This document shows, piece by piece, positions 18,819 to 36,316 of a stretch of DNA of 64,000 nt. Within the stretch, counting starts at the first letter, position 1; the number at the start of each line of letters is the position of its first letter. The notes beneath the pieces were generated by a model. It saw only the letters and a list, made by a program, of their open reading frames with translations, searched no databases and was not told the origin of the DNA. The translations under genes were made by a program, and so were the position numbers. Source of the stretch: Arthrobacter pascens (GTDB lineage: Bacteria; Actinomycetota; Actinomycetes; Actinomycetales; Micrococcaceae); the NCBI RefSeq assembly GCF_030815585.1, contig NZ_JAUSWY010000001.1, forward strand, positions 2,294,001 to 2,358,000, written 5' to 3'.

Positions 18819-19244
18819 TCAGGCAACGTCCCGGGAGACCCCCTGAACAGCAGACCGGTCCAGTTCCAGCCAGGCCTCCAGATGGAACGGCAGGATCAGC
18901 GGCGAGCCCGGCCGGCCCTGCAGGTAGGGCACCAGGAGCTGAAAGTCGACCGAGACGGCATGCACGCCCGGGCCAAGCCCGCGCCGGCCAGCCACGACGA
19001 GGCGGTCCTGGACGAACCACCAGCCGGACTCTTCCGGGAGCGCATCCGCCGGCACCTCCCGCATCCCGAGGTTCACCTCAAAATCCTCCCGACCGAGCCC
19101 AACGCCATCGACTTCCACGGCGAGGCCAGAGACGCTGGACAGCGGCATGGAGCGGATCCATGGCAGCCCGATCCGCAGCTCAAAGCCATCTGGAGTATTG
19201 GTGAGCGCATCTTCCCGCAGAGCTGTTTGCAACATGACTTCCAT
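18819..19244 (-). CDS. C-glycoside deglycosidase beta-subunit-like protein (DUF6379-type), divergent member
   Basis: This 141-residue beta-rich protein has the family layout: LRIGLPWIRSMPLSSVSGLAV near 23-43 (compare VQLPWYRSLWLSAVDDV at 22597), a Gly-loop, SGWWFVQDRLVV near 72-83, and FQLLVPYL near 102-109. In known C-glycoside deglycosidases the small beta subunit packs on the TIM-barrel alpha subunit and completes the active site. It is transcribed divergently from an alpha-like gene at 19303, unlike the usual co-linear order. It lacks the PYMQIAP-type end of its paralogues, so it is the most diverged copy. Confidence 0.7.
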   Translation of the reverse strand: MEVMLQTALREDALTNTPDGFELRIGLPWIRSMPLSSVSGLAVEVDGVGLGREDFEVNLGMREVPADALPEESGWWFVQDRLVVAGRRGLGPGVHAVSVDFQLLVPYLQGRPGSPLILPFHLEAWLELDRSAVQGVSRDVA

Positions 19245-19249
19245 CCTTT

Positions 19250-19269
19250 ATCCTAAAAGTGACATAAGT
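19250..19269. promoter_or_regulatory. Candidate operator (TGACATAAGT) between divergent beta and alpha genes
   Basis: AAAAGTGACATAAGT ends at 19269 and shares the ACATAAGT half with the sites at 17289 (CATAAGT), 26432, 32393 and 36380. It sits in the 58-base gap between two divergent starts, so one regulator could control both genes. The left half is poorly conserved here. Confidence 0.45.
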
Positions 19270-19302
19270 TTGTCATTAACACGCCTATTTGAAAAGGTGC
19301 CC

Positions 19303-20316
19303 ATGACCGGAATTCCTGACGCCTGGACCCTCTGCGCGAGCGCCTTCAACTGGACTCCTGAAGTCACCGCAGCACACCGCCCCGCCCTGGATATCGTGAC
19401 TGGCATAGTCGCTGATGGGGTGGCCGATACGATCGAACTCGAGCCCGGACTGCTGTGGCGGTCCTTCCCGGCCCCCCAAGGCGGCGAAGTGGACGAGTTC
19501 CGCGATGCCATGGACAAGGCAAAGGGGAACGTCAGCATCGTCGGTGCGAGCCTGGACGACTTCCTCTCAGCGACCCAGCGGCGATCCACCCAGCAGCGGC
19601 TGGACTTCCTGGTTCCCCAACTCCAGGCGGCCCGGCGGGTCGGGGCTGCCGGTGTCCGGTTGCCGATCGGCCAGGCCGGTGCCGAGCTGCTCGGCCTGGT
19701 ACAGCCCCTGCTGCACGAATTGGACCTGGTGCTGTACGAGGAGATCCAAGGACAGCAGGTTCCCGAGAGCCCCGCCATGGCCCCTGCGCTGAACACGATC
19801 GCGGGGCTGGCGGACGATCATGTCCGGGTGCTCGTGGACATCAGCATGCTCATGCCCTCCCTGCCTGCCAGCTACCTCGAGGAACTCCGCCGCGGCGGCG
19901 TCCCCGGCGAGCTGGTGACCCGGCTGGCGGACGAATGGCGGAACCCTGCCACGCTGGACGCCGTGAAGGCCCTGCTGCAGTCCGGCAACGTGCCGCCCCG
20001 TGTCCACACGCTCTTCATGAACCTGGTCATCCGCTTCGGCCGCAGCGACGTCTCAGACCTTCGGAGCATCCTTCCCCTGGTTGGCGGTTTCCACCTTAAA
20101 TTCTGGGACCTGGATGACACCGACGGACGTGTGTCGCAGCCGCTCCGCGACCTGGGGGGACTCCTGGGCAGCACCGGCTTTGCCGGCACCCTGACCAGTG
20201 AATGGGGCGGCCACGAGTGGCTCCAGGATGACCCCACCGACATTACGCGCCGGCACCTTGATCTCGCTGCCTCCGCGCTGGCTGCCGGTGCCTTGGGGGA
20301 CGGAGCTGCCGACTGA
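19303..20316 (+). CDS. TIM-barrel alpha-subunit-like protein (sugar isomerase/deglycosidase superfamily)
   Basis: This 337-residue protein starts at ATG 19303 behind AAAAGG. The AP-endonuclease-2 TIM-barrel metal set appears to be retained: Glu147 (VLYEEIQG), Asp179 (VLVDISM), His264 (GFHLKFWD) and Glu300 (LTSEWGGHEW). The SEWxGH signature is shared with the alpha proteins at 23786 and 33515. Overall similarity to them is low, so it may act on a different glycoside or on the released 3-keto sugar. It is divergent from the beta-like gene 18819 and ends at a strong terminator. Confidence 0.72.
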   Translation: MTGIPDAWTLCASAFNWTPEVTAAHRPALDIVTGIVADGVADTIELEPGLLWRSFPAPQGGEVDEFRDAMDKAKGNVSIVGASLDDFLSATQRRSTQQRLDFLVPQLQAARRVGAAGVRLPIGQAGAELLGLVQPLLHELDLVLYEEIQGQQVPESPAMAPALNTIAGLADDHVRVLVDISMLMPSLPASYLEELRRGGVPGELVTRLADEWRNPATLDAVKALLQSGNVPPRVHTLFMNLVIRFGRSDVSDLRSILPLVGGFHLKFWDLDDTDGRVSQPLRDLGGLLGSTGFAGTLTSEWGGHEWLQDDPTDITRRHLDLAASALAAGALGDGAAD

Positions 20317-20352
20317 CGCCATGCACTGTGGAACCGCTGGCAAAGCAAAGCG

Positions 20353-20397: not shown

Positions 20398-21402
20398 CTA
20401 CTTCGTGCTGAATGCCGCGTCGAATGCGGCGGCGGAGGGCTCATAGCTGGACAGCCTGCGGACGAATCCGAGTGCCTCGGGCGCCCCGGCCAGCCGGTCC
20501 ATGCCAGCGTCCTCCCACTCCACGGAGAGCGGGCCGCTGTAGTCGATGGAATTCAGCATCCGGAACGCATCCTCCCACGGCACGTCACCGTGCCCGGTGG
20601 AGATGAAGTCCCACCCGCGGCGCGGATCAGCCCAGGCCAGGTGCGAGGACAACCGGCCGTTGCGGCCGTTGGACAGGCGCTTCTTCGTATCCTTGCAGTG
20701 CACATGGTAGATCCGGTCCTTGAAATCCCAGAGGAATCCCACGGGGTCGATGTCCTGCCACACCATATGGCTCGGATCCCAGTTCAGCCCAAAGGCCTCG
20801 CGGTGCCCGATCGCCTCGAGTGCGCGCTGCGTGGTCCAGTAGTCGTAGGCGATCTCGGACGGGTGCACCTCGTGCGCGAACCGGACCCCGACCTCGTCAA
20901 AGACGTCAAGGATGGGATTCCACCTGTCCGCAAAATCCTGGTAACCGGCGTCGACCATCTTTTCAGAGGCAGGCGGGAACATTGCCACGTATTTCCAGAT
21001 GGACGAGCCCGTAAAGCCGGTCACCGTCTTCACGCCCAGCTTCGCGGCGAGCCGCGCGGTGTTCTTCATTTCCTCGGCGGCACGGCGGCGCACCCCTTCC
21101 GGATCCCCGTCGCCCCACACGATGTTCGGCAGGATGCCGCGGTGCCGTTCGTCGATCGGGTCGTCGCAGACCGCCTGGCCCTTGAGGTGGTTGGCGATGG
21201 TCCACACCTTGAGGCCGTGGCGTTCAAGGATGTCCAGTTTTCCCTGCACATAGGCCGTGTCGTCCCAGCGCCAGGGATCCAGGTGGTCACCCCAGCAGGC
21301 GATTTCCAGCCCGTCATAGCCCCACTCGCCGGCGAGCCGGGCCACCTCCTCGAACGGCAGGTCAGCCCACTGGCCGGTGAACAGCGTTATTGGTCGTGCC
21401 AT
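20398..21402 (-). CDS. Sugar phosphate isomerase/epimerase-family TIM-barrel protein
   Basis: The protein has 334 residues. ATG 21402 follows GGAGGGGAAGA, so the longer in-frame extension, which overlaps the upstream gene, is rejected. Metal ligands of the xylose-isomerase-like barrel are visible: Glu in FAHEVHPSE, Asp in GLNWDPSHM, His in YHVHCKD and Glu in SVEWEDAG. The barrel is followed by a short helical tail. Proteins of this type are often paired with Gfo/Idh dehydrogenases and act on 3-keto or inosose sugars. It is the last gene of the 26325-20398 operon, 13 bases after its Gfo/Idh neighbour. Confidence 0.82.
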
Positions 21403-21415: not shown

Positions 21416-22600
21416 TTAGCGGGCCTGAACGGCAGCGTCTGCTCCGACGCTGGTCCAGGCAGAGTCATTATCGGAGCTGCGCTCGACGGCGTCGAGCACA
21501 CGCTGCACCCTGAGCCCCTCAGCGAAGGTCGAATGCGGTTCAGTGCCGCCCACGATACCCTCCACGAGGTCCTTGACCTGGTGGGAGAACCCATGCTCGT
21601 AGCCGAGCATGTGGCCGGCGGGCCACCACGCCGAAACGTAGGGGTGTTCCGCTTCAGTGACCAGGATCTTCCGGAACCCCTGGCGGTCCGCGGGTGCAGT
21701 GCGGTCGTAGAACTGGACGCTGTTGAGGTCCTCAAGGTCGAACGCCAGGGCACCCTTGTCGCCCGAGACCTCAATCTGCAGCGCATTCTTGCGTCCGGTA
21801 GCAAAGCGCGAAGCCTCAAACGACGCCAGGGCGCCCGATTCGAAGCGGCCCGTGAAGATGGCGATATCGTCCACGGTGACCTGGCCCTTGCCTACGCCGG
21901 CAGTGCCGGAAAGACCGGAACCAGAATCCAGAAGGGGGCGTTCCTTCACGATGGTGTCGATGACGCCGGACACCTTCGCCAGGTTCAGCCCGGTCACGAA
22001 CTGGGCGAGGTCGATGGCGTGGGCGCCAATGTCCCCCAGCGCGCCGGACCCGGCGTGTTCCTTTTGCAGGCGCCAGGCCAGCGGCATGTCCGGATCGACG
22101 AGCCAGTCCTGCCGGTACGAGGCGCGCACCTGGTTGATGGTCCCCACGGCGCCCTCGGCGATGAGGTTGCGGAGGAAGGTGACGGCCGGAACCCGGCGGT
22201 AGGTGAAACCCACCATCGTCCGGATTCCCTTTGCTGCTGCCCGCTCGGCCGCTTCGGCCATGGCTTCAGCCTCGGCGACCGTGTTGGCCAGCGGTTTTTC
22301 ACACAGAACGTGCTTCCCCGCTTCAAGTGCCGCGATCGCGATCTCGGCGTGGGAGTCACCCGGGGTGACGATGTCGACGACGTCGATATCGTCACGGGCG
22401 ATCACCTCGCGCCAGTCTGTGGCTGACTCGGCCCAGCCCCACTTCTGGGCGGCTTCGGCCACGGCTTCGGCGTTCCGGCCGACAACGACCGTCATTTCGG
22501 GCTCCGCCGGCAGATCGAACACCCGCGGGGCCGTGCGCCATCCCTGGGAGTGGGCAGCACCCATAAAGCCGTATCCGATCATTGCCACGCGCAGGGTCAT
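21416..22600 (-). CDS. Gfo/Idh/MocA-family sugar dehydrogenase
   Basis: This 394-residue protein starts with [17 protein letters not shown], the NAD(P)-binding glycine motif. The catalytic Lys motif LCEKPLANT is near 100, with GFTYRRVPA following, and [13 protein letters not shown] (Asp/His pair) near 200. It overlaps the beta-subunit gene by four bases. It probably reduces or oxidises the keto-sugar released by the deglycosidases, alongside the isomerase at 20398. Confidence 0.87.
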
Positions 22601-22995
22601 GCGAGCACTACCTTGCGCTCAACTGCCACCCGGTTGCCGACGTAGCGCATGGGCGCGATCTGCATGTACAGCAGGCGGAGGGTGAGGACAACTTCGACGT
22701 CGATCTCCTCGCCCTCGTCCGGGACGCGGTCCAGCGGGATGATCACATCGGGCCGGTCCGCGACGAACCACAGCGTTTCCCATTGCTCGGGAAGCTCGGC
22801 AATGGAGTAGGACTTGCCCTGCAGCTCGAAGCGAAGGGATTCCTTGGGGATCTCCACCCCGTTGACTGTTGCGGCGACGTCGTCAACGGCGGACAGCCAA
22901 AGACTGCGGTACCAGGGCAGTTGCACCGTCACGGCAATGCCCTCTGGGTGCCTGCGGACGTCGGTGTCCTTGAACAGGGAGTTGTGAGTTGCCAT
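22597..22995 (-). CDS. C-glycoside deglycosidase beta subunit (DUF6379-type)
   Basis: This 132-residue protein starts at ATG 22995 behind AAGGAAA. Its core (HPEGIAVTVQLPWYRSLWLS, VNGVEIPKESLRFEL, LRLLYMQIAP) is closely mirrored by residues 1-135 of the fusion protein at 33515. In the CarBC-type deglycosidases of Microbacterium/Arthrobacter the beta subunit partners a TIM-barrel alpha subunit to break the sugar-aglycone C-C bond of 3-oxo-C-glycosides. Its natural partner here is most likely the alpha protein at 23786, separated by the NTF2-like gene. Confidence 0.82.
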   Translation of the reverse strand: MATHNSLFKDTDVRRHPEGIAVTVQLPWYRSLWLSAVDDVAATVNGVEIPKESLRFELQGKSYSIAELPEQWETLWFVADRPDVIIPLDRVPDEGEEIDVEVVLTLRLLYMQIAPMRYVGNRVAVERKVVLA

Positions 22996-23003: not shown

Positions 23004-23774
23004 TTACTTGAACGTGTCGACGAAGGTGTCGTGGGGAACAGGAGGGGCGGGATCCAGCGTCTGCCGTGTTGACGGGCTGTAGGGGTGGTACTCCGTGGGC
23101 ACGGGTTCATCGGCGGGCGGCATAAAGACCGGCTTGCCGTCGTCGCCGAAGTACATGAGGTCCAGGGCAAAGGCGTGCTGGTTCTTTTCCGCAAAGCTGA
23201 TCCAGTTTTCCTCGAACGGCGCCCGGAGGAGCTCGTAGCACCGGAATTTCCAGATCTTCCACTCACCGTCCTGCCGTAGGAAGTCCACCGCATACTTGCA
23301 CCAGACCCAGTGGGCCCAGACTTTCTTGCCCTGTACTTCGCCGGGTGAGTACATGTAGTCGGGACTTTCCTTGGCCACTTCCGGGTCCGTGAGTCCGGAC
23401 TCGTTGCCCGTGATGATCCAGACGCCCTTGGCGGTCTTGCCATCGGCGGCCACCTCGATCACCGGCGTCGTGGTGTAGTGCAGGATCAGCTTTCCCACAG
23501 GGGACGGACGCCCCTGGTGGTAGCGGACGACACTGTCGTAATCCGTATACTGCCCGGCGTTGGTGTACCTCGCACGGACGCCAGGCGTGCCCGGCTTCAC
23601 CCACAGCGGGATGATCTGTTCGTCCTCGAAGGCGTTGTGCAGATACATGTAGCGGTTGAACAGATTCTCGATGTCACCCCTGTCGTTGGCCCGGCGGGCC
23701 AGGCGGAGTGCCTCGCCGAGTTCACGGCGCAGCTCCTCAACCTCAGTGGTGAGCTCGGTATTGGTGGCAGTCAT
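23004..23774 (-). CDS. NTF2/SnoaL-like domain protein in the deglycosidase operon
   Basis: This 256-residue protein starts at ATG 23774 behind AGGAGA. A short coiled-coil-like N-terminus (EVEELRRELGEALRLARRAN, ~10-30) precedes a cone-like alpha+beta domain: DIENLFNRYMYLHNAFEDEQ, then KLILHYTTTPVIEV and DGEWKIWKFRCYEL. This is the scytalone-dehydratase/SnoaL type of fold, which hosts dehydratases, isomerases and aldol-type enzymes. It is much longer than the usual ~130 residues because of a proline-rich C-terminal extension. Its position between alpha and beta genes suggests it processes the glycoside or aglycone; the reaction is unknown. Confidence 0.7.
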   Translation of the reverse strand: MTATNTELTTEVEELRRELGEALRLARRANDRGDIENLFNRYMYLHNAFEDEQIIPLWVKPGTPGVRARYTNAGQYTDYDSVVRYHQGRPSPVGKLILHYTTTPVIEVAADGKTAKGVWIITGNESGLTDPEVAKESPDYMYSPGEVQGKKVWAHWVWCKYAVDFLRQDGEWKIWKFRCYELLRAPFEENWISFAEKNQHAFALDLMYFGDDGKPVFMPPADEPVPTEYHPYSPSTRQTLDPAPPVPHDTFVDTFK

Positions 23775-23785: not shown

Positions 23786-24811
23786 TTAGGCTGGAACGAC
23801 GGATTCCTCGACGGCGCGGCGCATCAGGGTGTGCTGCTTCTTGACCAGGTCGATCGGATCGGACTCGCCAAGGTCAGCGAACGCGTGCCCCTCCCACTCG
23901 CTGGACAGGAAGCCCTTGTAGCCGCCCTCGACGAATTGCCGCACGATGCGCGGAATGTCCATCGCGGGCTCGTTGCCGTGCTCGTCGATGTCGTAGAACT
24001 TGGCGTGCACGTGGAAGATCTGCGGCATGATGTCCAGCCATTCCTCCGGCGGAACCAGGCCGTGCATGTTGAACGCCAGCCGGGTGAACGGGCCCAGGCG
24101 TGCAGGATCAAAGTTATTGGCGTTCAGGTAGTCCTCGAACTCCTGGTTGCGTTCCTGCATTGGCAGCGGCTTGCGCCAGATTTCCTGCATCACGGCGAAG
24201 TGCTCCTCGGGCAGGCCCATCTGGGTCAGGGTGCGGAAGAGCGTGGGCGAGAGGCTGTGCATGGTGGAACTGAAGTCGGCCGTGAAACCGAGCCGGTCGC
24301 TGCCCAGTTCCGCGTACATTTCGCGGATCTGCAGGATCTTGGGATCGTTGGGGCCCTGCGGGGCGTGGATTTCGTAGCCAAGCTTCTGGTCGTACTTCTC
24401 TGCCAAGGGAAGAAGGCGCCCCAGCAGTTCCTTGCCGGCGGACCGGATGACGATCTTATTGAAGCCCAGCTTGTTGGCGGTCTTGAGCTGCCTGGCGAAG
24501 AAATCGTACTCCTCGTCGGGCGTCATGTCTCGGTCCTTACGCCGGCCCATGTCCAGGTTGGTGCCCACGGCGCTGGGGGTCAGGCCATAACGGTCCATGC
24601 TGTCCCGCCACAAGCGGACGAAGTCGTCGTCGACGTCGGGGTAGGTGCGCAGCATCTGGGCGATGTTGAACTCGACCCCGGGGCCGAGCCCTTCATCGGC
24701 GACGGCCTTGATCAGGGTCTCGGGCGTGTAGAGTCCGGCGGCGAACTCGGAGGTGAGTGAATAGAGGGTAATGCCAAGCTCGATGCCCGAGCCTGCGATG
24801 CCTTCTGACAT
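23786..24811 (-). CDS. C-glycoside deglycosidase alpha subunit (TIM barrel)
   Basis: This 341-residue protein starts at ATG 24811 behind AAAAGGAA. The metal site of the AP-endonuclease-2 barrel is visible: Glu147 (GYEIHAPQG), Asp179 (GFTADFSST), His269 (FHVHAKFYD) and Glu305 (SSEWEGHAF). It is highly similar along its length to residues 161-492 of the fusion protein at 33515. Known alpha subunits use Mn(II) and a general base to split 3-oxo-C-glycosides, with a small beta partner. It lies directly after the alpha gene 24830 in the operon led by 26325. Confidence 0.83.
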   Translation of the reverse strand: MSEGIAGSGIELGITLYSLTSEFAAGLYTPETLIKAVADEGLGPGVEFNIAQMLRTYPDVDDDFVRLWRDSMDRYGLTPSAVGTNLDMGRRKDRDMTPDEEYDFFARQLKTANKLGFNKIVIRSAGKELLGRLLPLAEKYDQKLGYEIHAPQGPNDPKILQIREMYAELGSDRLGFTADFSSTMHSLSPTLFRTLTQMGLPEEHFAVMQEIWRKPLPMQERNQEFEDYLNANNFDPARLGPFTRLAFNMHGLVPPEEWLDIMPQIFHVHAKFYDIDEHGNEPAMDIPRIVRQFVEGGYKGFLSSEWEGHAFADLGESDPIDLVKKQHTLMRRAVEESVVPA

Positions 24812-24829: not shown

Positions 24830-25933
24830 TCAGCCGCGGACGGGCTGGGCGAGGTGGCTGTTGAGGATGCGGCGGGCGTCTGTTGCGTCCGTGATCATGG
24901 CGGAACCGGCGTTTGCCGCAGCTGAACGCTGGACGGCCTGCTCGCCGCGGATGATGTCGAAGGGGTCCTGCCAGTTGTTCCAGTGCCAGCCTTCGTATTC
25001 GCTGGAGATGGCGCCGTTGTAGCCGTTCTCCACCAGTTGCCGGACCAGGTCACGCACCGGCACCGATGGCTCTTCGCCGTTTTCGTCGATGCCGAAGAAC
25101 TTGCCGTGCACGTGGCGCACCCATGGCATGATTTCCAGCCAGGTGTCCAGCGGTGCAGGCCCGAAGAGCCCCGTTCCGTTGATACCAAAGTCGATGCCGA
25201 GGTCCGGCCTGCCGTTGCGGGCGGCCAGGCCAATGAAGGCACCGAAGCGCTCACCATGGACCTTCTGGGTGTTGGGAGGTCCTTCGGCATAGAAGCCGTT
25301 CCACAGGTCAACCACCTGGCGGAGCAGGTCCTCGGAAGCGCCGCGCCGGCGGTAGGCCTCCAGCAGGGAGGGGGCAAAGCCAGCGACGGTGGCTCCCCAG
25401 TCGGCGGTGAAGCCAAGCAGTGGGGAATCGAGCTTCTCGTAGCGGTCGCGCAGGGCCAGCACGCGCTCGTGCGCGCCGTGCTGGTCCGCGTGGACCTCCA
25501 GTGCCAGGGTAACGCCGTACTTCTCGGCCACGGGCAGCAGGCTTTCCATGGCGTCGGGTGTCAAGGAGATCTGCACGCGTGCGATCGGGAAGCCCAGCCG
25601 GGCGGCCACCTCGATCTGCTTGCGCATGTATTCGACCAGCTCGTCGTGATTCATGAGCCGGTCGCGGTGGATTCCGGTGTCAACGTTGACTGCAAGGGAG
25701 GTGGGAACGAGGTCCACCTCGGCCACCAGGTCACGGAACCGGCCAACAAAGTTGTCGTCGATGCGGTCCGGGAAGCCCCGGAGGCTGGAGAATCCAATGA
25801 CCTCGAGCCCCGGACCGAAGCCCTCCGAAGCCAGTTTGCGGATCAGGCCGTCGAGGTCGTACTGCCGGGCGTGGAAGGCCCGCGTGAAGCTGTAAAGGGT
25901 GACGCCCTGGATCGGCGTGCCGAGGCTGGTCAT
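24830..25933 (-). CDS. Second C-glycoside deglycosidase alpha subunit (TIM barrel)
   Basis: The protein has 367 residues. It overlaps the beta gene 25930 by four bases, so the pair is surely co-translated and is probably one enzyme. Metal residues are Glu146 (ALEVHADQ), Asp178 (GFTADWGAT), His276 (RHVHGKFFG) and Glu312 (SSEYEGWHW). It differs from the 23786 alpha protein through most of the barrel loops and has a C-terminal tail of ~30 residues, suggesting different substrate range. Confidence 0.82.
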   Translation of the reverse strand: MTSLGTPIQGVTLYSFTRAFHARQYDLDGLIRKLASEGFGPGLEVIGFSSLRGFPDRIDDNFVGRFRDLVAEVDLVPTSLAVNVDTGIHRDRLMNHDELVEYMRKQIEVAARLGFPIARVQISLTPDAMESLLPVAEKYGVTLALEVHADQHGAHERVLALRDRYEKLDSPLLGFTADWGATVAGFAPSLLEAYRRRGASEDLLRQVVDLWNGFYAEGPPNTQKVHGERFGAFIGLAARNGRPDLGIDFGINGTGLFGPAPLDTWLEIMPWVRHVHGKFFGIDENGEEPSVPVRDLVRQLVENGYNGAISSEYEGWHWNNWQDPFDIIRGEQAVQRSAAANAGSAMITDATDARRILNSHLAQPVRG

Positions 25934-26325
25934 CGCTGTGCCACCTTCATGGTCTTGGTGTCGTGCTCTTCGATGTGCAGCACGCCGTGGTCGGTGATGA
26001 TGTAGGGGATGTAGAGCTTCAGGTCCACCCGGACCTCGTGCTCGGCCTGGTCATCCTGGACGGGAAGCTGGCCGGAAAGGACAGCCGAATCCAGCGGGAA
26101 CCACCACTCGCCGGTCTCGTCCACGAGTTCCTCAAAGCTGAACGTGCGGTTGTTCATGGTCCAGCGCAGCGAGTCCTCGGGGGCGGCGACGCCGTCCACC
26201 GTCAGCGCCGCTCCAGCGATGCACGAACCCGGAAGGGCGCGGTACCAGGGGATGCGGACTTCGACGGCGGTGCGGCCGTCCCGGGTGGTGAGTGTTCCTT
26301 GCTCGATAATGCGGTCGGCGATCAT
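25930..26325 (-). CDS. C-glycoside deglycosidase beta subunit (DUF6379-type), partner of 24830
   Basis: This 131-residue protein starts at ATG 26325, chosen for the AAGGAGGT seven bases upstream. It has the family core VEVRIPWYRALPGSCIAGAA, VDGVAAPEDSLRWTM, GEWWFPLDSAVL and LKLYIPYIIT. It is the first gene of the operon that runs to 20398. The candidate operator at 26413-26432 lies ~90 bases upstream, inside the 3' end of the oxidase gene, so the operon probably has its own promoter. Confidence 0.8.
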   Translation of the reverse strand: MIADRIIEQGTLTTRDGRTAVEVRIPWYRALPGSCIAGAALTVDGVAAPEDSLRWTMNNRTFSFEELVDETGEWWFPLDSAVLSGQLPVQDDQAEHEVRVDLKLYIPYIITDHGVLHIEEHDTKTMKVAQR

Positions 26326-28752: not shown

Positions 28753-29127
28753 CTAAAACATGGGGTGGTCGTGGACGGGATGCTCCGGGACCGGCTGGAG
28801 GACGTCCCAGTGCTCAACAATCCGTCCGTCTTTGAAGCGGTAGATATCTGCGACGGCGGCGTCCGGGCGGCCGGGACCTGATGCCTTGACGTGCACCATT
28901 GCGAGGTTGCCGTCCACCAGGATGCGCTGCACGTCAAACCTGGACTCAGGCGATCGGTCGAACTTTGGCGTCAGCATCCGGATAGCCGCCTCCGGACCGT
29001 CGGGAATGGTCGGGTTGTGCTGCCTGTAGTCGTCAGCCACCAGGAAGTCGAAGGCTTCGCGCACCCGTTTTTGGGTGTAGAACATCTCCACGAAGCGCTC
29101 GAACGCTTCGCGGTTGTCAACCGTCAC
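28753..29127 (-). CDS. SnoaL/NTF2-like small enzyme
   Basis: This 124-residue single-domain protein starts at GTG 29127, three bases after the permease gene. It shows FVEMFYTQKRVREAFDFLVADDYRQHNP near 12-39 and DIYRFKDGRIVEHWDVLQPVPE near 89-110, typical of predicted SnoaL-like aldol-condensation enzymes. The His/Asp-rich C-terminus (EHPVHDHPMF) is common to that group. It sits between transport and isomerase genes; its role in glycoside processing is inferred only from position. Confidence 0.75.
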   Translation of the reverse strand: MTVDNREAFERFVEMFYTQKRVREAFDFLVADDYRQHNPTIPDGPEAAIRMLTPKFDRSPESRFDVQRILVDGNLAMVHVKASGPGRPDAAVADIYRFKDGRIVEHWDVLQPVPEHPVHDHPMF

Positions 29128-29130: not shown

Positions 29131-29967
29131 TCAGCCCTTCAGGCCGCCGGAGAAGCCCTGAATAAAGCGCTTCTGCGCGAACAGGAACAGCGCCAGGATG
29201 GGAACCATGGACACGATCACGATCGCAAAGATCGAATTCCACTCCGAAACCAGTGAACCGATGTAGTAGTACATGGCCACCGGCAGCGTCTGGTTGGCCG
29301 AGCCGCCCAGGAAGATCAGCGAGGTGAAGAAGTCGTTCCACACGATGAGCCCGGCGAAAATGGTGACCGTTCCGGTGGCGGGAGCCATCATGGGCAGCAC
29401 CACCTTCCCAAAAATCTGGGACCTGCTGGCACCGTCAATGGTGGCTGCCTCCTCGTAATCCGTGCCAAGTCCCCGGAAAAAGTTGGAGTAGAGGAAGATC
29501 GACAGCGGCAGGAGCATGCCGGTGTACAGGACGATCAGGCCCCATGCGGATCCTGTGAGACCCATGGCACGTGCGCCCATGTATAGGGGTACGGCGCCGA
29601 GCTGGCCGGGGAGGATGATGGCGATCAGGAAGAGATAGTACGCGCCCTTGCTCCAGCGGCGGGTGCTGCGGGAGATCACGTATCCAGTGATTGACCCGAG
29701 CGCGATGAGCCCGACGATACTCCCCGCCGTAATGATGATGCTGTTCACCAGGCCCAGAACAACGTTGGAGTTTCCTGTGGCTGTCAGGACGGCCACGAAG
29801 TTGCTGAAGTCCGGGTTCTTCGGGAGCGCAAGGGGCGAGGTGGTGTACATTTCGCTGTCCGGCTTCAGGGCGGTCGTCACTAGGAAGTAGAACGGGGCGA
29901 GGAAGGTCAGCGCGAGGACCCAAAGGCCAATTTCGCGGAGCAGGGTGAGTTTGGTGTAGCGGAACAT
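29131..29967 (-). CDS. Carbohydrate ABC transporter permease (MalG-type)
   Basis: This 278-residue membrane protein starts at ATG 29967 behind GGAGGA. It has about six hydrophobic segments (first at LREIGLWVLALTFLAPFYFL) and the EAA loop EEAATIDGASRSQIFGKVVLP that docks with the ATPase. It pairs with the permease 29971 and binding protein 30984. No ATPase gene is in the window, so it probably shares a housekeeping MsiK-type ATPase, as many actinobacterial sugar importers do. Confidence 0.9.
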   Translation of the reverse strand: MFRYTKLTLLREIGLWVLALTFLAPFYFLVTTALKPDSEMYTTSPLALPKNPDFSNFVAVLTATGNSNVVLGLVNSIIITAGSIVGLIALGSITGYVISRSTRRWSKGAYYLFLIAIILPGQLGAVPLYMGARAMGLTGSAWGLIVLYTGMLLPLSIFLYSNFFRGLGTDYEEAATIDGASRSQIFGKVVLPMMAPATGTVTIFAGLIVWNDFFTSLIFLGGSANQTLPVAMYYYIGSLVSEWNSIFAIVIVSMVPILALFLFAQKRFIQGFSGGLKG

Positions 29968-29970
29968 TGT

Positions 29971-30930
29971 TTAGTCCTCCGGGTTCTGCCGTGTCAGCCG
30001 CTGCTGGATTACGGCGAAGAACAGGATGATGGCGGCGAGCACCAGGGCCAGGGCGGCGCCGCCGCCGAAGTTGCCGAGCGCAAATGCCTGTTTGTAGACC
30101 TGAGTGGCCAGGGTTTCGGTTGCGCCAGCGGGTCCTCCGTTGGTCAGGGCCATAATCGGGTCGAAGACCCGGAGCCCCTGGACGATTCCCAGCGTTGTGG
30201 CGATGGCGATGGCGGGGCGGATGGCTGGCAACGTGACGTAGCGGAAGCGCTGCCAGAGGTTCGCACCGTCGATGGCGGCCGCCTCCTCGACTTCCACCGG
30301 GACGCCGGCAAGTCCCGCCATGAAAATCACCATGGCAAAGCCGGTGGACCCCCAGACGAGGACTACGAGCACCGTCCAGATGGCCCACTGCGGGTCGGCG
30401 AGCCAGGGTTTGGCGAGGTCTCCGGCGCCTATTGAGGTGAGGAAGACGTTGATGGGCCCGTCAAAGTCAAAGATGTACTTCCAGACGTAGGCAGTGGCCA
30501 GGGGGCTGAGCACCACGGGCATAAAGAAGAGGGTGCGGAGAATGTACCGTGTCTTCAGCATCCGGTTGAGGCCGAGGGCGATAATGAGCCCGCCGACATT
30601 GCCGAGGAAGACCGAACCAAAGGCCAGGAACAGCGTGTTAGTCAGGGCGCCGAGCTTGGTGGGGTCCTTGAAGATGGCTTCGAAGTTTTGCCAGCCCACA
30701 ATTTTGAACGAGCCGATGCCTGTCCAGTTGGTGAATGCGAAGAAACCGCCGATACCTGTTGCCACGTAGTGGATGGCGATGACCAGGACAATCCCGGGCA
30801 GCGCCCACCACCAATGTCCCAACTGCAGGCCGGTGCTGCGGGGACGGGGTTTTTCGCCCGCCCCCGGAGCACGTCTGCCTCGCAGGGGTGCTTTTGCTGC
30901 TTCGCTTTTCGGTTGCATCGTCGCAGTCAT
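29971..30930 (-). CDS. Carbohydrate ABC transporter permease (MalF-type)
   Basis: This 319-residue protein starts at ATG 30930. The positively charged N-terminus (~40 residues, RGRRAPGAGEKPRPRS) precedes WWWALPGIVLVIAIHYVA. The EAA loop reads EVEEAAAIDGANLWQRF. Six or seven membrane segments are evident. It is four bases upstream of the second permease gene and downstream of the binding protein. Confidence 0.9.
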   Translation of the reverse strand: MTATMQPKSEAAKAPLRGRRAPGAGEKPRPRSTGLQLGHWWWALPGIVLVIAIHYVATGIGGFFAFTNWTGIGSFKIVGWQNFEAIFKDPTKLGALTNTLFLAFGSVFLGNVGGLIIALGLNRMLKTRYILRTLFFMPVVLSPLATAYVWKYIFDFDGPINVFLTSIGAGDLAKPWLADPQWAIWTVLVVLVWGSTGFAMVIFMAGLAGVPVEVEEAAAIDGANLWQRFRYVTLPAIRPAIAIATTLGIVQGLRVFDPIMALTNGGPAGATETLATQVYKQAFALGNFGGGAALALVLAAIILFFAVIQQRLTRQNPED

Positions 30931-30983
30931 GGTAATCCTTGCTTGTCCCTTTGAGTTGTTGGAACTGTGGTGATCTGAAGCTG

Positions 30984-32276
30984 TTACTGTCCCCAGGCTG
31001 TATCCATGGCCTGGAGTACCTGATCGGCAGTTTTCTGCCCGGTGATCAGGCCCTGGACGCCGGTGGCGAGGGCGTCGTACACGGCGGAGTTGGGCCACTG
31101 GCTGTTTGGCAGCGGGCCGTACTTTCCGTCCTTGATGAGATCGCCGACGTTCTTGTAGGCGCCGGCGTTGAAGTCGTAGCTGTCGAGGCCGGTGACCGGC
31201 AGGGCGCCATCGATTTCCGCGAAGGCCTTGGTCTGCTCAGGCTGGGCCGCCCAGTCGAGGAACGCCTTGGCGGCATCCTTGTTCTTGGACGCCGCGTTGA
31301 TGGAGAATGCGTAGTTGGCACTGGCGTAGACGAAACTTTCGGAGCTCGCCTCTGCCGGGAGCGCCCGCACATTGAAGTCCGAGTCTGCAGCTGCGGTCTT
31401 CAGCTGCTTCCAGCTGGGGCCGGGGATAAAGCCCGCAACCGATGTTCCGCCGGCAAGGCCCTTGGTGATGGCGTCGAACCCGGCGCCTGCAGCGCCCTTC
31501 TGGAAGCAGCCCGCATCCTTGAGTTTGGTGACAGCCTCCAGCGATGCCTTCCAGCCGTCCGAGCCGGCGAAGGTGGTCTCCTTGGCGGCCCGCTTTTCGT
31601 TCCACTTCGGGTCCTCCGCGTAGACGCGGGACGCTGCAAGGGACATCGCCATGAGGCCGGTGTTCGGAGCTGCGGAGCCGGCCAGGGCTATGAACGACTT
31701 GCCGGATGATTCCAGTTTTTTGCACTGGTCCTCGAGGGAGGCGAAGTCCGCCGGGAAATCAGACATGCCGGCTGCCTTGGCAGCTGATTCATTGGCAACC
31801 AGGCCAACCACGGTGATCTCAGGTGCCTGGCCGTAGACTTTTCCGTCAGTGCCGAAGAGTGCTTCACTGCCCTCGGGAACCAGTTCCTTGGCGGCATCGT
31901 CCAGTGGCTCCAGGAAGCCTGCCTGAATGAGCGGCAGAATGCTGCGCCCGGTGCCCGAACCGGGCGACGTCACGACGACGTCGGAGGCGTTTCCGGCCTG
32001 AAGCTGCGTCCGCAGGGTCTGGTCGTAAGAGTCGTTGGGCTGCGGGTTGAACGTGATCTTCACGTTCGGGTTCGCTTCCATGTACTTCTCACCCAAGACC
32101 TGAAAGGGGCTCTCGATGGTGTTGGAAGTGGCAAATGACAGGGAGAACTCCTGCGAGCCTCCGGAGGAGGAGTTGCTGCCGGTGGAGGCCGAGCAACCGC
32201 TAAGGATGAGGGCTGCGATCGTGGGGACGGCGAGGGCGCCGACCCTTAGGCCCGAATAGCGACTGTGCTGTGACAT
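30984..32276 (-). CDS. Sugar-binding lipoprotein of the ABC importer
   Basis: This 430-residue extracytoplasmic protein has a signal peptide ending in lipobox LSGC (Cys28), then a Ser/Gly linker and a family-1-type binding fold (SFATSNTIESPFQVLGEKYMEANPNVKITF). It should capture the sugar or glycoside outside the membrane. It is the first gene of the operon 32276-26396. Two candidate operator halves lie 75-120 bases upstream. The ligand is inferred to be a glycoside from the oxidase and deglycosidase neighbours. Confidence 0.9.
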   Translation of the reverse strand: MSQHSRYSGLRVGALAVPTIAALILSGCSASTGSNSSSGGSQEFSLSFATSNTIESPFQVLGEKYMEANPNVKITFNPQPNDSYDQTLRTQLQAGNASDVVVTSPGSGTGRSILPLIQAGFLEPLDDAAKELVPEGSEALFGTDGKVYGQAPEITVVGLVANESAAKAAGMSDFPADFASLEDQCKKLESSGKSFIALAGSAAPNTGLMAMSLAASRVYAEDPKWNEKRAAKETTFAGSDGWKASLEAVTKLKDAGCFQKGAAGAGFDAITKGLAGGTSVAGFIPGPSWKQLKTAAADSDFNVRALPAEASSESFVYASANYAFSINAASKNKDAAKAFLDWAAQPEQTKAFAEIDGALPVTGLDSYDFNAGAYKNVGDLIKDGKYGPLPNSQWPNSAVYDALATGVQGLITGQKTADQVLQAMDTAWGQ

Positions 32277-32351: not shown

Positions 32352-32393
32352 TGCAGAAAAAGCACATAAGTATTGCCGATGCCAGACATAAGT
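32352..32393. promoter_or_regulatory. Two candidate operator half-sites (CACATAAGT, CAGACATAAGT)
   Basis: AGCACATAAGT ends at 32371 and CCAGACATAAGT ends at 32393, 22 bases apart (two helical turns). They lie between the divergent binding-protein (32276) and LysR (32509) genes. The right one is identical over CAGACATAAGT to the site at 26432. Confidence 0.55.
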
Positions 32394-32508
32394 TTCGCGG
32401 GGGTCCGCGAAAGCTTCCTACATCCGGGGTTGTGATGCACCCCACTAAATGCATTGATGCCGCTGATACACTGATCTGACAAGTTCACCGTTGAAGGAAC
32501 GCCGCGCC

Positions 32509-33453
32509 GTGACGAATCATGTCCTGCTTTCCCGGCTCGACCTTAACCTGCTGATATCGCTGGATGCCCTCATCACTGAGCGGAGCGTAACGAGGGCGGC
32601 CGAGCGCCTCCATCTGAGCCAGCCGGCGCTGAGCGCCTCGCTTGCGCGCCTCCGGTCCCACTTCGGGGATCCCCTCCTGGCCCGCCGCGGAAACGCCTAC
32701 GAGCTCACGCCATTCGCCCTGCGGCTGGCGGAACACACCACCACGGCACTGGAAGCCGCCCGCCGTGTCTTTGAGAGCCAGGCAACGTGGGAGCCCACCG
32801 AATCCGAGCGTGAGTTCTCCATCTACGGCTCTGACTACGGGTTCACCACCATTGGCCGGGTAGTTTCCGAGCTTGCGGCTGAACGCGCCCCGGGTGTCCG
32901 GTTCCGGTTTATGCTCCACAATCCGATGGTTGTGGAAGATGCAGCCAACCGCCTTCGTTCAGTGGACGGCATGGTGATCCCCCACGGCTTCCTGTCCGGA
33001 CTCCCCTACCTGGACCTGTGGCGGGACGGGTGGGTCGCCGTCGTCTCTTCCTCCAACGAGGCCGTCGGCGAGAAGATCACCATGGAGAACATCGCCGAAC
33101 TCCCGTGGGTCATGACGTATCAGACGCGCTCAGCGTCAACGTCCGCGGAACGCCAAATCATGCAGCTGGGCGTTGAGCCGCGGGTGGATGTGGTGGTTGA
33201 AAGTTTCCAGTCCTTGCCGCATTTTGTGGTGGGGACCAACCGGATCGCGCTCATCCAGGCAGCGCTGGTTCCGTTCGCGCTGCGTGTGGGCGGGGTGCGG
33301 ATCCTGCCGCTCCCGTTCGATGCCACGCCGCTGGTTAATGCCCTGTGGTGGCATCCGGTACACAACCGCGATTCCGAGCATGAGTGGATGCGGGGCCTTT
33401 TCAAGGACGCGGCTGACATCGTCGCAGCCGCCGCGGTTCCGGAAACCCCTTAA
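32509..33453 (+). CDS. LysR-family transcriptional regulator
   Basis: This protein of about 314 residues is taken from GTG 32509; a TTG at 32491 is possible. The HTH is RSVTRAAERLHLSQPALSAS with LRSHFGDPLLARRGN. The effector domain follows a FSIYGSDYGF strand and is related to the 11127 regulator. It is divergent from the importer operon and shares its 230-base intergenic region, so it is a likely second regulator of uptake, beside the ROK protein. Confidence 0.87.
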   Translation: MTNHVLLSRLDLNLLISLDALITERSVTRAAERLHLSQPALSASLARLRSHFGDPLLARRGNAYELTPFALRLAEHTTTALEAARRVFESQATWEPTESEREFSIYGSDYGFTTIGRVVSELAAERAPGVRFRFMLHNPMVVEDAANRLRSVDGMVIPHGFLSGLPYLDLWRDGWVAVVSSSNEAVGEKITMENIAELPWVMTYQTRSASTSAERQIMQLGVEPRVDVVVESFQSLPHFVVGTNRIALIQAALVPFALRVGGVRILPLPFDATPLVNALWWHPVHNRDSEHEWMRGLFKDAADIVAAAAVPETP

Positions 33454-33490: not shown

Positions 33491-33514
33491 ACGCATGGGG
33501 ATTTGTTTGCAGCG

Positions 33515-34993
33515 TCAGGCTGATGTGAGCGCCGTCCGCATGCTCTTGCGAATGAGGTCGTGCTGCTTGCGGACCAGCAGCAGCGGGTCCACCTCCCCGA
33601 GCTCAGCGAAGGCGTGGCCCTCCCACTCGCTGGACCAGTAGCCGCGGTAGCCGCCTTCCACGAACACGCGGACCAATTCCGGGTAGTCGATCGCGGGCTC
33701 ATTGCCCTGCTCATCGATGTCGTAGAACTTCGCGTGGACGTGCATGATCTGCGGCATGATGTCAGACCACTCCTTCGGACTGACATGGCCGTGCATGTTG
33801 AAGGCGAGGTGGGCGAAGGAACCGAGGCGGGCAGGATCAAAGCCGCGTCCGCGCAGGTAGTCAATGAAGTCCTCCTGCCGCGCCCGCATCGGGGCCTCGG
33901 TGGCCCAGATGGCTTGCAGCCTTTGCACGGCGTCGTCGTCGAGTCCGGCCCGGCGGACAGCGCGCAGGAGGGTGGGTGACATGCTGTGCATGGTGGAGGA
34001 AAAATCCGCTACGAAGCCCAACATCGGAGAGTCGAGATCGGCGTAGACGTCGCGGACCTTCATGATCTCCGGGGAGTTGGGTCCCAGCGGCGCGTGGATC
34101 TCGTAGGCAAGCTTGAGTTCGAGGTCTTCGGCCAGCGGCAGGAGCCGGCGCAGCAGTTCGGGCTTGGCGCTCTGGATGCGGACAAGCGGGAACCCCAGCT
34201 TCTTCGCGCCGTGGAAGAGCGTCTCGGTGAACTCGTATTCTTCGTCCGGCGTCATGTCACGGTCCCGGCGCCGGCCCATGTCCAGGTTGGCGCCAAAGGA
34301 GCTTGCGGTGAAGCCGTGTTTGTCGAAGGCCTCCTGCCAGGAACGGGCGAAGTCATCAGTTACGTCCGGATAGGTCGGCAGTACCTGGGAGGCCACGATC
34401 TCGATGCCGGGGCCGATGCCCAGCTCCGCCACCCGGTTCAGCAGGCCGTCGAAGTCGTACCAGCCGGCCCGGAACTCGGCACTGGCTGAGTACAGGGTAA
34501 GCCCGAGCGAGAACGGATCGTCCTCGGACTTCGGCGGAGGCGGCGTGACCGCCCTCGTCAGTTCCGGGGCAGCAGAGGCCCTGTCCGTGACGGTCAGCTC
34601 CAGCGTTTGGTCCACGAAGTTGGGGACGTACATGCCGGGACCGCCGTGCTGGCCCGGTGCGATCTGCATGTACGGCAGTCGAAGCTCCCCCATTACCTGG
34701 ATGGTGTGCTGTTCGCCCAGGGAAACCGGGCTTACCCTCTTGGCGATGAGCAGGGGATGTTCCTGCAGGTACCAGAGTGTCTCGCTTTGCGCCGGCAGGT
34801 CGGGAAGCGCATAGCGGACACCACCCAGTTCCAGGGACAGGTCCCCGGCGGGAATGTCCTGGCCGTCGACGGTCAGCTGCAGGCTGGAAACCGAGGAGAG
34901 CCACAAGCTGCGGTACCAAGGAATCGTCAGGGCCAGCGCGAGGCCCTCCGGATGGGGGCGGAGGCTTGATTCGTCAATAAGTCCGTTTGGCAT
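33515..34993 (-). CDS. Natural beta-alpha fusion C-glycoside deglycosidase
   Basis: The 492-residue product joins both subunits. Residues 1-138 are a DUF6379-type beta domain (HPEGLALALTIPWYRSLWLS, LRLPYMQIAPGQ). Residues ~139-160 are a Pro-rich acidic linker (TPPPPKSEDD). Residues 161-492 are a TIM-barrel alpha domain with Glu298 (AYEIHAPLG), Asp330 (GFVADFSST), His420 (MHVHAKFYD) and Glu456 (SSEWEGHAF). The two halves are most similar to the separate proteins at 22597 and 23786, so a fusion after duplication is likely. One continuous frame with AAAGAGA upstream of ATG 34993 rules out a simple overlap. It is 30 bases after the second fusion gene. Confidence 0.83.
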   Translation of the reverse strand: MPNGLIDESSLRPHPEGLALALTIPWYRSLWLSSVSSLQLTVDGQDIPAGDLSLELGGVRYALPDLPAQSETLWYLQEHPLLIAKRVSPVSLGEQHTIQVMGELRLPYMQIAPGQHGGPGMYVPNFVDQTLELTVTDRASAAPELTRAVTPPPPKSEDDPFSLGLTLYSASAEFRAGWYDFDGLLNRVAELGIGPGIEIVASQVLPTYPDVTDDFARSWQEAFDKHGFTASSFGANLDMGRRRDRDMTPDEEYEFTETLFHGAKKLGFPLVRIQSAKPELLRRLLPLAEDLELKLAYEIHAPLGPNSPEIMKVRDVYADLDSPMLGFVADFSSTMHSMSPTLLRAVRRAGLDDDAVQRLQAIWATEAPMRARQEDFIDYLRGRGFDPARLGSFAHLAFNMHGHVSPKEWSDIMPQIMHVHAKFYDIDEQGNEPAIDYPELVRVFVEGGYRGYWSSEWEGHAFAELGEVDPLLLVRKQHDLIRKSMRTALTSA

Positions 34994-35023
34994 GGTTGTT
35001 CTCTTTGCTGGGAGATGGGATGG

Positions 35024-36316
35024 TCAGGGAAGTTCGGAGGTGATGCGGCGGATCAGGGCGTGCTGGCGCCGTACCTGCTCGATGGCACGCCACGGCGTAC
35101 GTTCGCCTTCGTATTCGCTGGAGAGGTAGCCGGTGTAGCCGGCGTCCTTGAGGCTTTGGAGCACGGGCCGCCAAGGGATCTGCTGGTCTTCCAGCTGGTC
35201 GTTGATGTCATGGAACTTCGCCTGGATGAACACAACATACTGGGCGATGTCTGCGAAATTGGCCGGATCGACGCCGATGCCGTCCAGGAAGGCGGGCCGG
35301 GTTTCGCGGGTCTCCCCTTCACGCAGGGGGATGGGCCGGTCCTGGAAGATGCCCGTATCGATGAGCAGACCGAAGTTCTTGGTTCCGGTCCGTTCGATGA
35401 GGCCGATGTAGTCGTCCACGACGGGGTGCTTGATGGGTGTGGGCGAATGGATCTCGGGGCAGATGATGATCCCCAGTTCGTGGGCCAGATCCAGGGAGCG
35501 CTCAACGGACTCGGTCCAGATCGGATCCGGAACGAGGTCACTGGAGACCACGCCGATCTTGGGCCGCACGAAGCCGAAGCCCAGCCGGTGGGCAAGCCGC
35601 AGGTCGCGCTGCAGAGCCTCTGCACCCTCGGCGGCGGTCATGCTCCGTCCCGGGTGCAGCCGGGTGTCGATCCATGATCCGTAGTTCGTGGGCTCCAACG
35701 AGTATTTCTCGAGCAGGCCGAACCAATTGTCCACCCACGCCGGGGTGGGTTCCGGATAGTTGGGGATGTGGCCCTCGCCGAGGATCTCTACGCCGGTGGC
35801 GCCCACATCGGCGAGGGACGCCAGCGAGGTCTCCAGGTCCATCACGGTGCCGTAGTCGCCCATGTAGCTGTAGAGGGAAACGCCGTAGCGGAAGGTTCCG
35901 TCACCGCCCTCCGGCGCCAGAGTCACCGTACGGCTGACGCGGTGGATCGTGGGCTGGTGCTCGACGGGAATGTAGGACATGCGCAGCCGCAGCTCGATGG
36001 TGAGCTCGTGGACGCCTTGCTGCAGGCCGCCGTCGAACGGCACTGTGATTACCGCCGCTTCCTCAAGGGGCCAGCGCACGCCCTCGCTTTCCCAAAGCTG
36101 CGCCAGGGTGTAAGTCCGCCCGCCGAAGGTCCACAGCGGAATATCAGGGCCGACGTCGACGATGTTGCCAACGCGGACCGCAATGCCGTCGATGAGGGAC
36201 GCGGCCATGCCGCGGTAGGAAGGCATCCGGACCCGGAACTGGAAGCCGGTCACGCGCCCACCCTCGGTGACGTTGCGGAAGCCGACGGACTGGATGAGGT
36301 CTCTTTCGAGAAGCAT
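35024..36316 (-). CDS. Second beta-alpha fusion deglycosidase with altered metal ligand
   Basis: This is a 430-residue fusion. Residues 1-~138 form a beta domain (FRVRMPSYRGMAASLIDGIA, LRLRMSYIPVEHQ). The barrel follows after a short linker from ~142 (FRYGVSLYSYMGD). Glu288 (CPEIHSPTP), Asp320 (LLIDTGIFQ) and Glu401 (SSEYEGERT) are kept, but the His of the paralogues is Gln365 (FIQAKFHD). Gln serves as ligand in hydroxypyruvate isomerases, so activity is still plausible. It is diverged enough from 33515 that the fusion may have arisen twice. It is the first gene of a two-gene operon with an operator candidate ~45 bases upstream. Confidence 0.8.
   Translation of the reverse strand: MLLERDLIQSVGFRNVTEGGRVTGFQFRVRMPSYRGMAASLIDGIAVRVGNIVDVGPDIPLWTFGGRTYTLAQLWESEGVRWPLEEAAVITVPFDGGLQQGVHELTIELRLRMSYIPVEHQPTIHRVSRTVTLAPEGGDGTFRYGVSLYSYMGDYGTVMDLETSLASLADVGATGVEILGEGHIPNYPEPTPAWVDNWFGLLEKYSLEPTNYGSWIDTRLHPGRSMTAAEGAEALQRDLRLAHRLGFGFVRPKIGVVSSDLVPDPIWTESVERSLDLAHELGIIICPEIHSPTPIKHPVVDDYIGLIERTGTKNFGLLIDTGIFQDRPIPLREGETRETRPAFLDGIGVDPANFADIAQYVVFIQAKFHDINDQLEDQQIPWRPVLQSLKDAGYTGYLSSEYEGERTPWRAIEQVRRQHALIRRITSELP

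Follow-up and report, generated by a model that had tools for sequence, protein, structure and literature searches.

Five alpha/beta sets of the C-glycoside deglycosidase family in one conserved locus of Arthrobacter pascens and its relatives, one of them with its metal site kept and its catalytic residues replaced

The breakdown of C-glycosides by soil bacteria has been described as a two-enzyme process in which an oxidase works with a single lyase pair, the latter being a C-glycoside deglycosidase (CGD) composed of an alpha and a beta subunit. Both AgCGD1 and AgCGD2, heterodimers of separate chains for which metal-dependent cleavage of 3-oxo-C-glycosides was reported, stem from Arthrobacter globiformis NBRC 12137 (PMC8563793, Mori 2021; here and below, statements on PMC8563793, PMC10646112, PMC11170127, PMC11673046 and PMC12724307 refer to the accessible portions of these papers). 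In the AgCGD2 numbering, which we use throughout, the metal ligands are E147, D179, H269, K271 and E305, and the catalytic residues are H149 and E307 (PMC8563793). Exchange of the His for Ala left 10.4% of the activity in PuCGD and 1.8% in MiCGD, while exchange of the Glu for Ala left 49.8% and 1.9%, respectively (PMC8563793). Besides, two CGD pairs next to the glycoside 3-oxidase PsG3Ox have been published (PMC10646112), as have multiple dgpBC clusters in gut Catenibacillus, with six in C. decagia (PMC11170127). Published work already covers the enzyme family, that of the oxidase and the two pairs beside PsG3Ox. Here, we analysed a stretch of 64,000 nucleotides from Arthrobacter pascens (contig NZ_JAUSWY010000001.1, positions 2,294,001 to 2,358,000; referred to in its entirety as the window), in which five such alpha/beta sets lie close together, and we focus on set 1, whose residues depart from those of the described enzymes in both subunits.

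In profile searches of the window's proteins, five beta and five alpha modules were recovered within 18 kb (Table 1). The beta modules all exceeded the cut-off of the Pfam family PF19906 (CGDB, C-glycoside deglycosidase beta subunit; 27.6 bits), their solved relatives carry the name DUF6379, and a whole-genome search returned exactly these five CGDB genes and none further. The AP_endonuc_2 cut-off was passed by four of the five alpha modules, the alpha module of set 1 (a1) staying under the threshold (16.4 vs 31.1 bits). All five matched solved CGD alpha chains in phmmer searches, and residues 15-325 of a1 aligned with the AgCGD2 alpha chain 7dnm_A. The genes at 20398-21402 and 27952-28725 were considered as further CGD alphas and discarded, their matches being IolE-like and hydroxypyruvate-isomerase-like. 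A preliminary description of this DNA, made from the letters and their open reading frames (ORFs), had claimed a C-glycoside deglycosylation locus with five DUF6379-type beta and five TIM-barrel alpha modules, and this is borne out: neither a beta module without a family match nor an alpha module with ordinary sugar isomerases as its only relatives was found, the two outcomes that had been named beforehand as speaking against it. The oxidase, the two NTF2-like proteins, the keto-sugar dehydrogenase (Gfo/Idh) and the importer that it listed were likewise recovered.

In set 1, the alpha subunit retained the five metal ligands and carried Gln at position 149 and Gly at position 307 in 7/7 genomes. 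The corresponding pattern, EQDHKEG, was present in 64 of the 70 a1 ORFs from 66 loci, the remaining six being broken or partial and confined to three loci in which a1 is split into several ORFs (L095, L096 and L097). The same combination of kept ligands, Gln149 and Gly307 was seen in the window and in all 120 of the best 120 of 695 database relatives, and it extended to five loci at merely 30-32% a1 identity. The beta subunit deviated as well. At the position equivalent to Tyr39 of PuCGE (position 29 of b2, located via the offset of the b2-DgpB alignment), Ile was found in 76 of the 78 rows for the set 1 beta (b1); of the two others, one (L101) has Phe and the other a gap, and some genomes are counted twice among these rows. 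Tyr occupied that position in five solved beta chains aligned to b1, among eight that matched, and in Kribbella (L100) the beta that partners a1, which the best match assigns to b3, has Met there. Set 1 therefore displays the metal ligands of a CGD, and lacks alpha His149, alpha Glu307 and the beta Tyr. With the His base and the Glu gone from the alpha and the phenolate Tyr gone from the beta subunit, set 1 probably does not cleave C-C bonds. It would nevertheless have a function, as it is old, stands regularly beside canonical sets and carries a fixed pattern of substitutes, and the retained metal site argues for sugar chemistry.

Nei-Gojobori comparisons of the window with eight loci gave ratios of nonsynonymous to synonymous substitution rates (dN/dS) of ~0.15-0.20 for a1, with dS near 1, and of ~0.22-0.32 for b1, as against 0.04-0.11 for a2, a3, f4 and f5, which indicates that set 1 is under purifying selection. 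Decay of set 1 is ruled out by the fixed residue pattern together with dN/dS below 1. Although b1 and a1 are divergent in the window, with a1 on the plus and b1 on the minus strand, 27 of the 66 loci, mostly of Microbacterium and Leifsonia, have both in a single open frame (three of these 27 frames are overlong and have uncertain starts), which supports their being partners; a further b1-a1 fusion is a 476-residue database protein. The window's own a1 and b1 are 62-77% identical to those of congeners, more divergent than its other sets and mostly with higher dS, and possibly represent a recombined allele. In public records, many a1 relatives are called 'restriction endonuclease subunit R', which is likely a misannotation, others 'hypothetical protein' and some sugar phosphate isomerase/epimerase. 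As these record names are misleading, set 1 is easily overlooked.

The CGDB family is not common in the order, where any member was found in 16 of 396 sampled genomes (own included). It occurred in 9/59 sampled genomes, again counting the own one, and among 37 genomes of the genus, seven had the five-set arrangement (in one case plus a sixth CGDB elsewhere), two had other CGDs in three and one copies, and 28 had none. A scan that used the alignment of set 1 alphas on named genomes yielded the 66 a1 loci, of which 46 belong to Microbacteriaceae, 14 to Micrococcaceae and one to Kribbella, three being without a family and two bearing Planococcus and Stenotrophomonas titles. The latter two (L058, Planococcus sp., and L085, Stenotrophomonas maltophilia) have a Microbacterium-like gene content, and their titles may reflect mislabelling, contamination or transfer. 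In 50 of the 66 loci, b2, a2, a3 and b3 were all located inside the a1 flanks of up to 10 kb; in a Rhodoluna a1 locus, no other set was found within its 12.7 kb stretch. Of 49 genomes behind a1 loci that were searched for copy number, 46 had 4-6 CGDB copies, two had 2 and one had 13. The genome with 13 matches is that of Naasia aerilata (L097), some of whose matches are identically scored at both contig ends. A Leifsonia genome showed 4 CGDB by Pfam and all five sets with a custom beta profile, which indicates that Pfam misses some set 1 betas. Lastly, all five sets were present in 15/15 other loci examined in full, six from congeners and nine others, spanning Micrococcaceae and Microbacteriaceae and chosen for 4-6 copies close together; f5, fused in the window as f4 is, is split in the Leifsonia locus. 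As the a1 loci include A. globiformis NBRC 12137 and Pseudarthrobacter siccitolerans 4J27, the contrast with 'one oxidase, one pair' drawn in the preliminary description was too strong: the very strains of the published enzymes have the same locus, and two pairs beside PsG3Ox as well as multiple gut dgpBC clusters had been reported (PMC10646112, PMC11170127).

A phylogeny of the alpha modules (78 rows, with four congeners left out for thinning; a quick IQ-TREE run with SH-aLRT support only and a long-branch warning for the most distant rows) placed set 1 on one side of a fully supported branch. The island's a2, a3 and f4 each formed one supported clade spanning both families, with a2 and f4 as sisters, while the supported f5 clade also included a solo alpha from another locus of one genome (G025). 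The alphas thus appear as five old clades that were inherited together, in a conserved island and not through local amplification. That the five paralogs lie inside 18 kb might have suggested that genes were recently amplified on the spot in this strain, yet the tree contradicts it, the old clades are common to two families and the 15 other full loci, albeit picked for copy number, each carry five sets. We consider this explanation practically excluded, ruled out by the alpha tree and the shared loci. Likewise, where the preliminary description had relied on paralogy within the window, the sets instead emerge as co-inherited clades, which favours distinct roles in one programme.

As to the canonical sets, set 2 is the AgCGD2 ortholog in both subunits. 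The A. globiformis NBRC 12137 genome (G432) has five CGDB, all within this locus, and set 3 would be the AgCGD1 ortholog by elimination, because AgCGD1 and AgCGD2 are heterodimers of separate chains, which leaves out the fused sets, and because set 1 is without the catalytic residues. The betas of sets 2, 3 and 4 belong to PF19906, and all seven alpha residues (five ligands, H149 and E307) were intact in these sets, in 7/7 genomes each. The beta Tyr was present in 71/72 b2 rows, 64/69 b3 rows and 24/24 rows for the beta part of f4; the six non-Tyr rows of b2 and b3 consist of five gaps and the one Met of Kribbella, which belongs to the beta beside its a1. A complete metal site had been expected in set 5 as well and was not found: all 7/7 genomes have Gln in place of the metal ligand His269, the other six alpha residues being retained, and the beta Tyr was seen in 25/26 rows, with one gap. 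The match of f5 to the solved chain 8qrz (435 residues) is full-length. A literature search for 8qrz (also for 8un2, 8qvc and 8umc) brought up no relevant paper.

A short motif, ACATAAGT, was encountered repeatedly in the locus. There are six copies in the window vs 0.35 expected, a count that is not independent, as the motif was chosen from the window's own intergenic words; the sixth copy lies at 38175, with no gene assigned to it. In the loci of Arthrobacter type, the window included, it was found between b1 and a1 in 9/9, twice at 22 bp spacing before the importer in 9/9, before b3 in 8/9 and before f5 in 3/9, and among seven other loci it was present in 4 and absent in 3. The motif seems to be common to several putative promoters, that of set 1 included.

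Table 1. Coordinates of the alpha/beta modules, accessory genes and motif copies in the window
Feature	Position	Strand	Remark
b1, set 1 beta	18819..19244	-	PF19906 42.5 bits; Ile replaces conserved beta Tyr
a1, set 1 alpha, CGD-like TIM barrel	19303..20316	+	phmmer 7dnm_A E 4.9e-24
b2, set 2 beta	22597..22995	-	PF19906 55.2 bits; 267.8 bits to 7dnm_B
a2, set 2 alpha	23786..24811	-	749 bits to 7dnm_A over 1-340
a3, set 3 alpha	24830..25933	-	199.5 bits to 7dnm_A
b3, set 3 beta	25930..26388	-	PF19906 51.7 bits
f4, set 4, fused beta-alpha	33515..34993	-	PF19906 42.2 bits and AP_endonuc_2; 448 bits to 7dnm_A
f5, set 5, fused beta-alpha	35024..36316	-	PF19906 109 bits; 742 bits to 8qrz_A
Glycoside 3-oxidase 1	26396..27979	-	1028 bits to 7qf8, whole chain
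Glycoside 3-oxidase-like GMC protein 2, paralog	12173..13846	-	398 bits to 8qve, 363 to 7qf8
IolE-like AP_endonuc_2 protein	20398..21402	-	Below NCBIfam cut-offs; candidate 3-oxo-glycal hydratase
Gfo/Idh/MocA dehydrogenase	21416..22600	-	Resembles levoglucosan dehydrogenase, under the cut-off of that model; candidate 3-oxo-glucose reductase
Hydroxypyruvate-isomerase-like AP_endonuc_2 protein	27952..28725	-	Below NCBIfam cut-offs
SnoaL_4 (NTF2-like) protein	23004..23774	-	Between b2 and a2; optional, 6/15 other full loci
SnoaL_2 (NTF2-like) protein	28753..29127	-	Optional, 6/15 other full loci
ATP-binding cassette (ABC) importer: two permeases and solute-binding protein	29131..32276	-	
LysR regulator	32491..33453	+	
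ROK-family protein, candidate regulator	17351..18622	+	
Second Gfo/Idh protein (GfoB)	16212..17285	-	
Conserved protein without Pfam family	15421..16215	-	
Major facilitator superfamily (MFS) transporter	13758..15254	-	
Aromatic ring-cleavage type genes	4006..11073	+	Extradiol dioxygenase, FAA hydrolases, cyclase, FAD monooxygenase, amidohydrolase, short-chain dehydrogenase/reductase (SDR)
ACATAAGT	19262..19269	+	Between b1 and a1
ACATAAGT	26425..26432	+	Upstream of b3, within oxidase gene 3' end
ACATAAGT, two copies (32364, 32386), 22 bp apart	32364..32393	+	Upstream of ABC importer
ACATAAGT	36373..36380	+	Upstream of f5

Among the accessory genes, the first oxidase is the PsG3Ox ortholog, as its whole-chain match shows. 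The preliminary description knew of this oxidase only and overlooked a second C-glycoside-oxidase-like gene (12173-13846) outside the part of the window it dealt with, along with the LysR gene, the ring-cleavage genes and the ACATAAGT motif. By sequence, the second protein is a member of the bacterial POx/CGOx family, and its gene was recovered by best match in 14/15 other full loci, with just 45-47% identity in two Microbacterium loci; two POx/CGOx-type genes in one Microbacterium genome have been noted (PMC11673046). At least four of the seven ring-cleavage type genes were found near a1 in 36/66 loci from many genera and none in 17/66, an absence that says little given a1 flanks limited to 10 kb. 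The window's extradiol enzyme scored below the NCBIfam cut-off for catechol 2,3-dioxygenase, and we name no aglycone for that reason. The conserved protein at 15421-16215, which has a weak PA-domain match only, was present in 39/66 a1 loci at 34-76% identity. Close to the right edge of the island lies an integrase-core (rve) gene, transposase-like, at 38633-39457 on the minus strand.

Taken together, we think it fairly likely that the locus is one conserved catabolic island directed at C-glycosylated, and probably some O-glycosylated, plant polyphenols, with set 1 as a component that is not a canonical eliminase. Its substrates would be imported through the ABC and MFS systems and oxidised at C3 of the sugar by one or both oxidases of the glucose-methanol-choline (GMC) type. 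Sets 2-5 would provide four Mn-type alpha/beta beta-eliminases that split 3-oxo-glycosides differing in position or aglycone class, with set 2 (AgCGD2) acting on C8- and set 3 (probably AgCGD1) on C6-glycosides, set 4 being related to set 2, and set 5 being fused and altered in one metal ligand. The released enone sugar might then be hydrated by the IolE-like candidate and reduced by the Gfo/Idh candidate, and the aglycone passed to the neighbouring ring-cleavage genes. Set 1 would have another role in the same pathway, most likely that of shifting the keto group between C2 and C3, by which 2-oxo by-products would be returned to the eliminases. Gene content, orthology, conservation, the residue swaps and the common motif are seen in the sequences themselves, and activity has been reported in the literature for the orthologs AgCGD2 and PsG3Ox; the further roles, and everything on the reaction of set 1, we infer. 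The 'additional unrecognised lyase steps' suggested in the preliminary description could at best be sought in sets 4 and 5, and not in set 1, which lacks the lyase residues on both subunits.

For set 1 itself, our proposal is a tentative one, namely that this branch of the CGD family is a metal-dependent 2-oxo/3-oxo keto-glycoside isomerase or epimerase acting on intact C-glycosides and rescuing 2-oxo by-products that at least one eliminase rejects. TIM-barrel enzymes of the D-tagatose 3-epimerase type have an E/D/H/E metal site and use metal-bound Glu residues as an acid/base pair. A keto-isomerase would fit because C-glycosides, once oxidised, convert spontaneously from 3-oxo into 2-oxo forms, which for nothofagin become dominant towards pH 7, and because 2-keto-nothofagin is not used by PuCGE (Bitter et al., PMC10628242). 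Several points weigh against our interpretation of the locus and of set 1. The 2-oxo and 3-oxo forms of puerarin interconvert fast without enzyme (PMC10628242), and for this substrate a keto-isomerase may be unneeded. The active-site geometry of set 1 is read from an alignment, and weak elimination by it may be conceivable by analogy with PuCGD, which keeps ~10% without its His (PMC8563793). Evolution is also faster in set 1 than in the alphas of the other four sets, which weaker constraint would fit as well, and set 5 has Gln for the metal ligand His269, as does the solved 8qrz. Regarding the island, ACATAAGT was selected from the window's intergenic DNA before it was counted, and is absent in 3/16 loci. 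Moreover, two genomes with a distant a1 (31-32% identity), those of Arthrobacter sp. 9AX and Kribbella, have 2 CGDB only, and one genome of the order (G274) has five CGDB on two contigs (L124 and L125) that form unrelated sets, with <= 41% identity in any piece. The assumption that five CGDB copies always represent this island was thus wrong, and copy number alone cannot identify it, given these unrelated sets and the distant a1 genomes with two copies.

Other readings of set 1 have to be weighed against the keto-isomerase. It might be a non-catalytic pseudoenzyme that serves as a sensor of 3-oxo-glycosides, a carrier or an assembly partner, a possibility with a modest chance of being correct: three catalytic residues are lost, evolution is faster, and in Arthrobacter-type loci b1 has the ROK gene as a neighbour and points away from a1. 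Nonetheless, the five metal ligands, kept in the window and the best 120 of 695 relatives, are not obviously needed by a binder. Should set 1 instead be an O-glycoside-specific beta-eliminase acting, in the manner of AtOGE, on 3-oxo-O-glycosides with good leaving groups, the loss of the beta Tyr would fit, as the Y39F variant of PuCGE beta is down ~12,000-fold in C-glycoside cleavage and just 2.4-fold with 3-keto-phlorizin (PMC10628242), and for certain oxidised phenolic O-glycosides cleavage needs no enzyme at all (PMC12724307). AtOGE, however, depends on its His, the H134A variant being inactive (PMC10628242), whereas Gln stands there in the window's set 1 and in those 120 relatives alike, and we regard this reading as unlikely.

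We are similarly doubtful that set 1 is the hydratase which turns the released 1,5-anhydro-hex-1-en-3-ulose into 3-oxo-glucose. The retention of a sugar-handling metal site together with the loss of the phenol-binding Tyr would suit such an enzyme, and an IolE-like gene was not found in the examined stretch of 2/15 other full loci; in the other 13/15, however, the IolE-like candidate would make it redundant, and AtHYD, the hydratase candidate in print, is an isomerase-like protein in its own right (PMC10628242). Finally, all five sets could be C-glycoside eliminases, with set 1 using another base, e.g. a metal-bound hydroxide, on an unusual aglycone. The retained ligands, the residual activity of PuCGD without its His, the co-occurrence of the sets and their common motif can be cited in favour, yet here the beta Tyr is lost too, whose exchange for Phe is by itself so costly on C-glycosides, and three swaps fixed jointly point to altered chemistry, which renders this explanation quite improbable.

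Our literature search, conducted mostly without subscription journals, found no account of five sets in one soil locus, no description of natural CGD fusions and none of a CGD branch that lacks the His. Two bacterial families have kept five alpha/beta sets together with an oxidase of the PsG3Ox type. In place of 'one pair per substrate', a division of labour that can be tested comes into view, and the published A. globiformis and P. siccitolerans enzymes turn out to belong to a larger whole. The most important part is set 1: a family known for breaking C-C bonds, an unusual reaction, has an old branch in which the reaction residues are replaced in both subunits and the metal site is kept. This one set may prove more than a variant of a known enzyme family. 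If set 1 were indeed an isomerase or epimerase, it would represent an unrecognised step in soil C-glycoside degradation.

How, then, does the locus relate to the described systems? AtOGE of Agrobacterium shares the pathway logic, being a Mn TIM-barrel beta-eliminase of 3-oxo-glycosides, yet is reported to be unlike CGDs in sequence and to lack a second subunit (PMC10628242). The DgpABC and DfgABE systems of the gut (PuCGD, EuCGD) belong to the same alpha/beta fold family, with set 5 scoring 223 bits against EuCGD alpha; unlike the window, they employ an NAD-dependent oxidoreductase, DgpA, and separate subunits, reported as heterooctamers. PurABC of Paenarthrobacter sp. No. 37 combines, similar to our locus, an FAD oxidase with a heterodimeric, C8-glycosyl-active CGD, but the accessible portion of PMC12724307 describes one pair, and the likeness is one of description. 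Closer still is the PsG3Ox cluster of P. siccitolerans 4J27, whose oxidase is orthologous and whose PsCGD B1/B2/C1/C2 would, judged by position, make up sets 2 and 3, alphas as well as betas; four CGD genes are named in what is accessible of PMC10646112, whereas set 1 and the fused sets 4 and 5 of the same locus are not. With regard to AgCGD1 and AgCGD2, the available text of PMC8563793 deals with two CGDs of the strain and makes no mention of sets 1, 4 and 5, while the same five-set locus is found in A. globiformis and set 2 of the window is the ortholog of AgCGD2 (7dnm).

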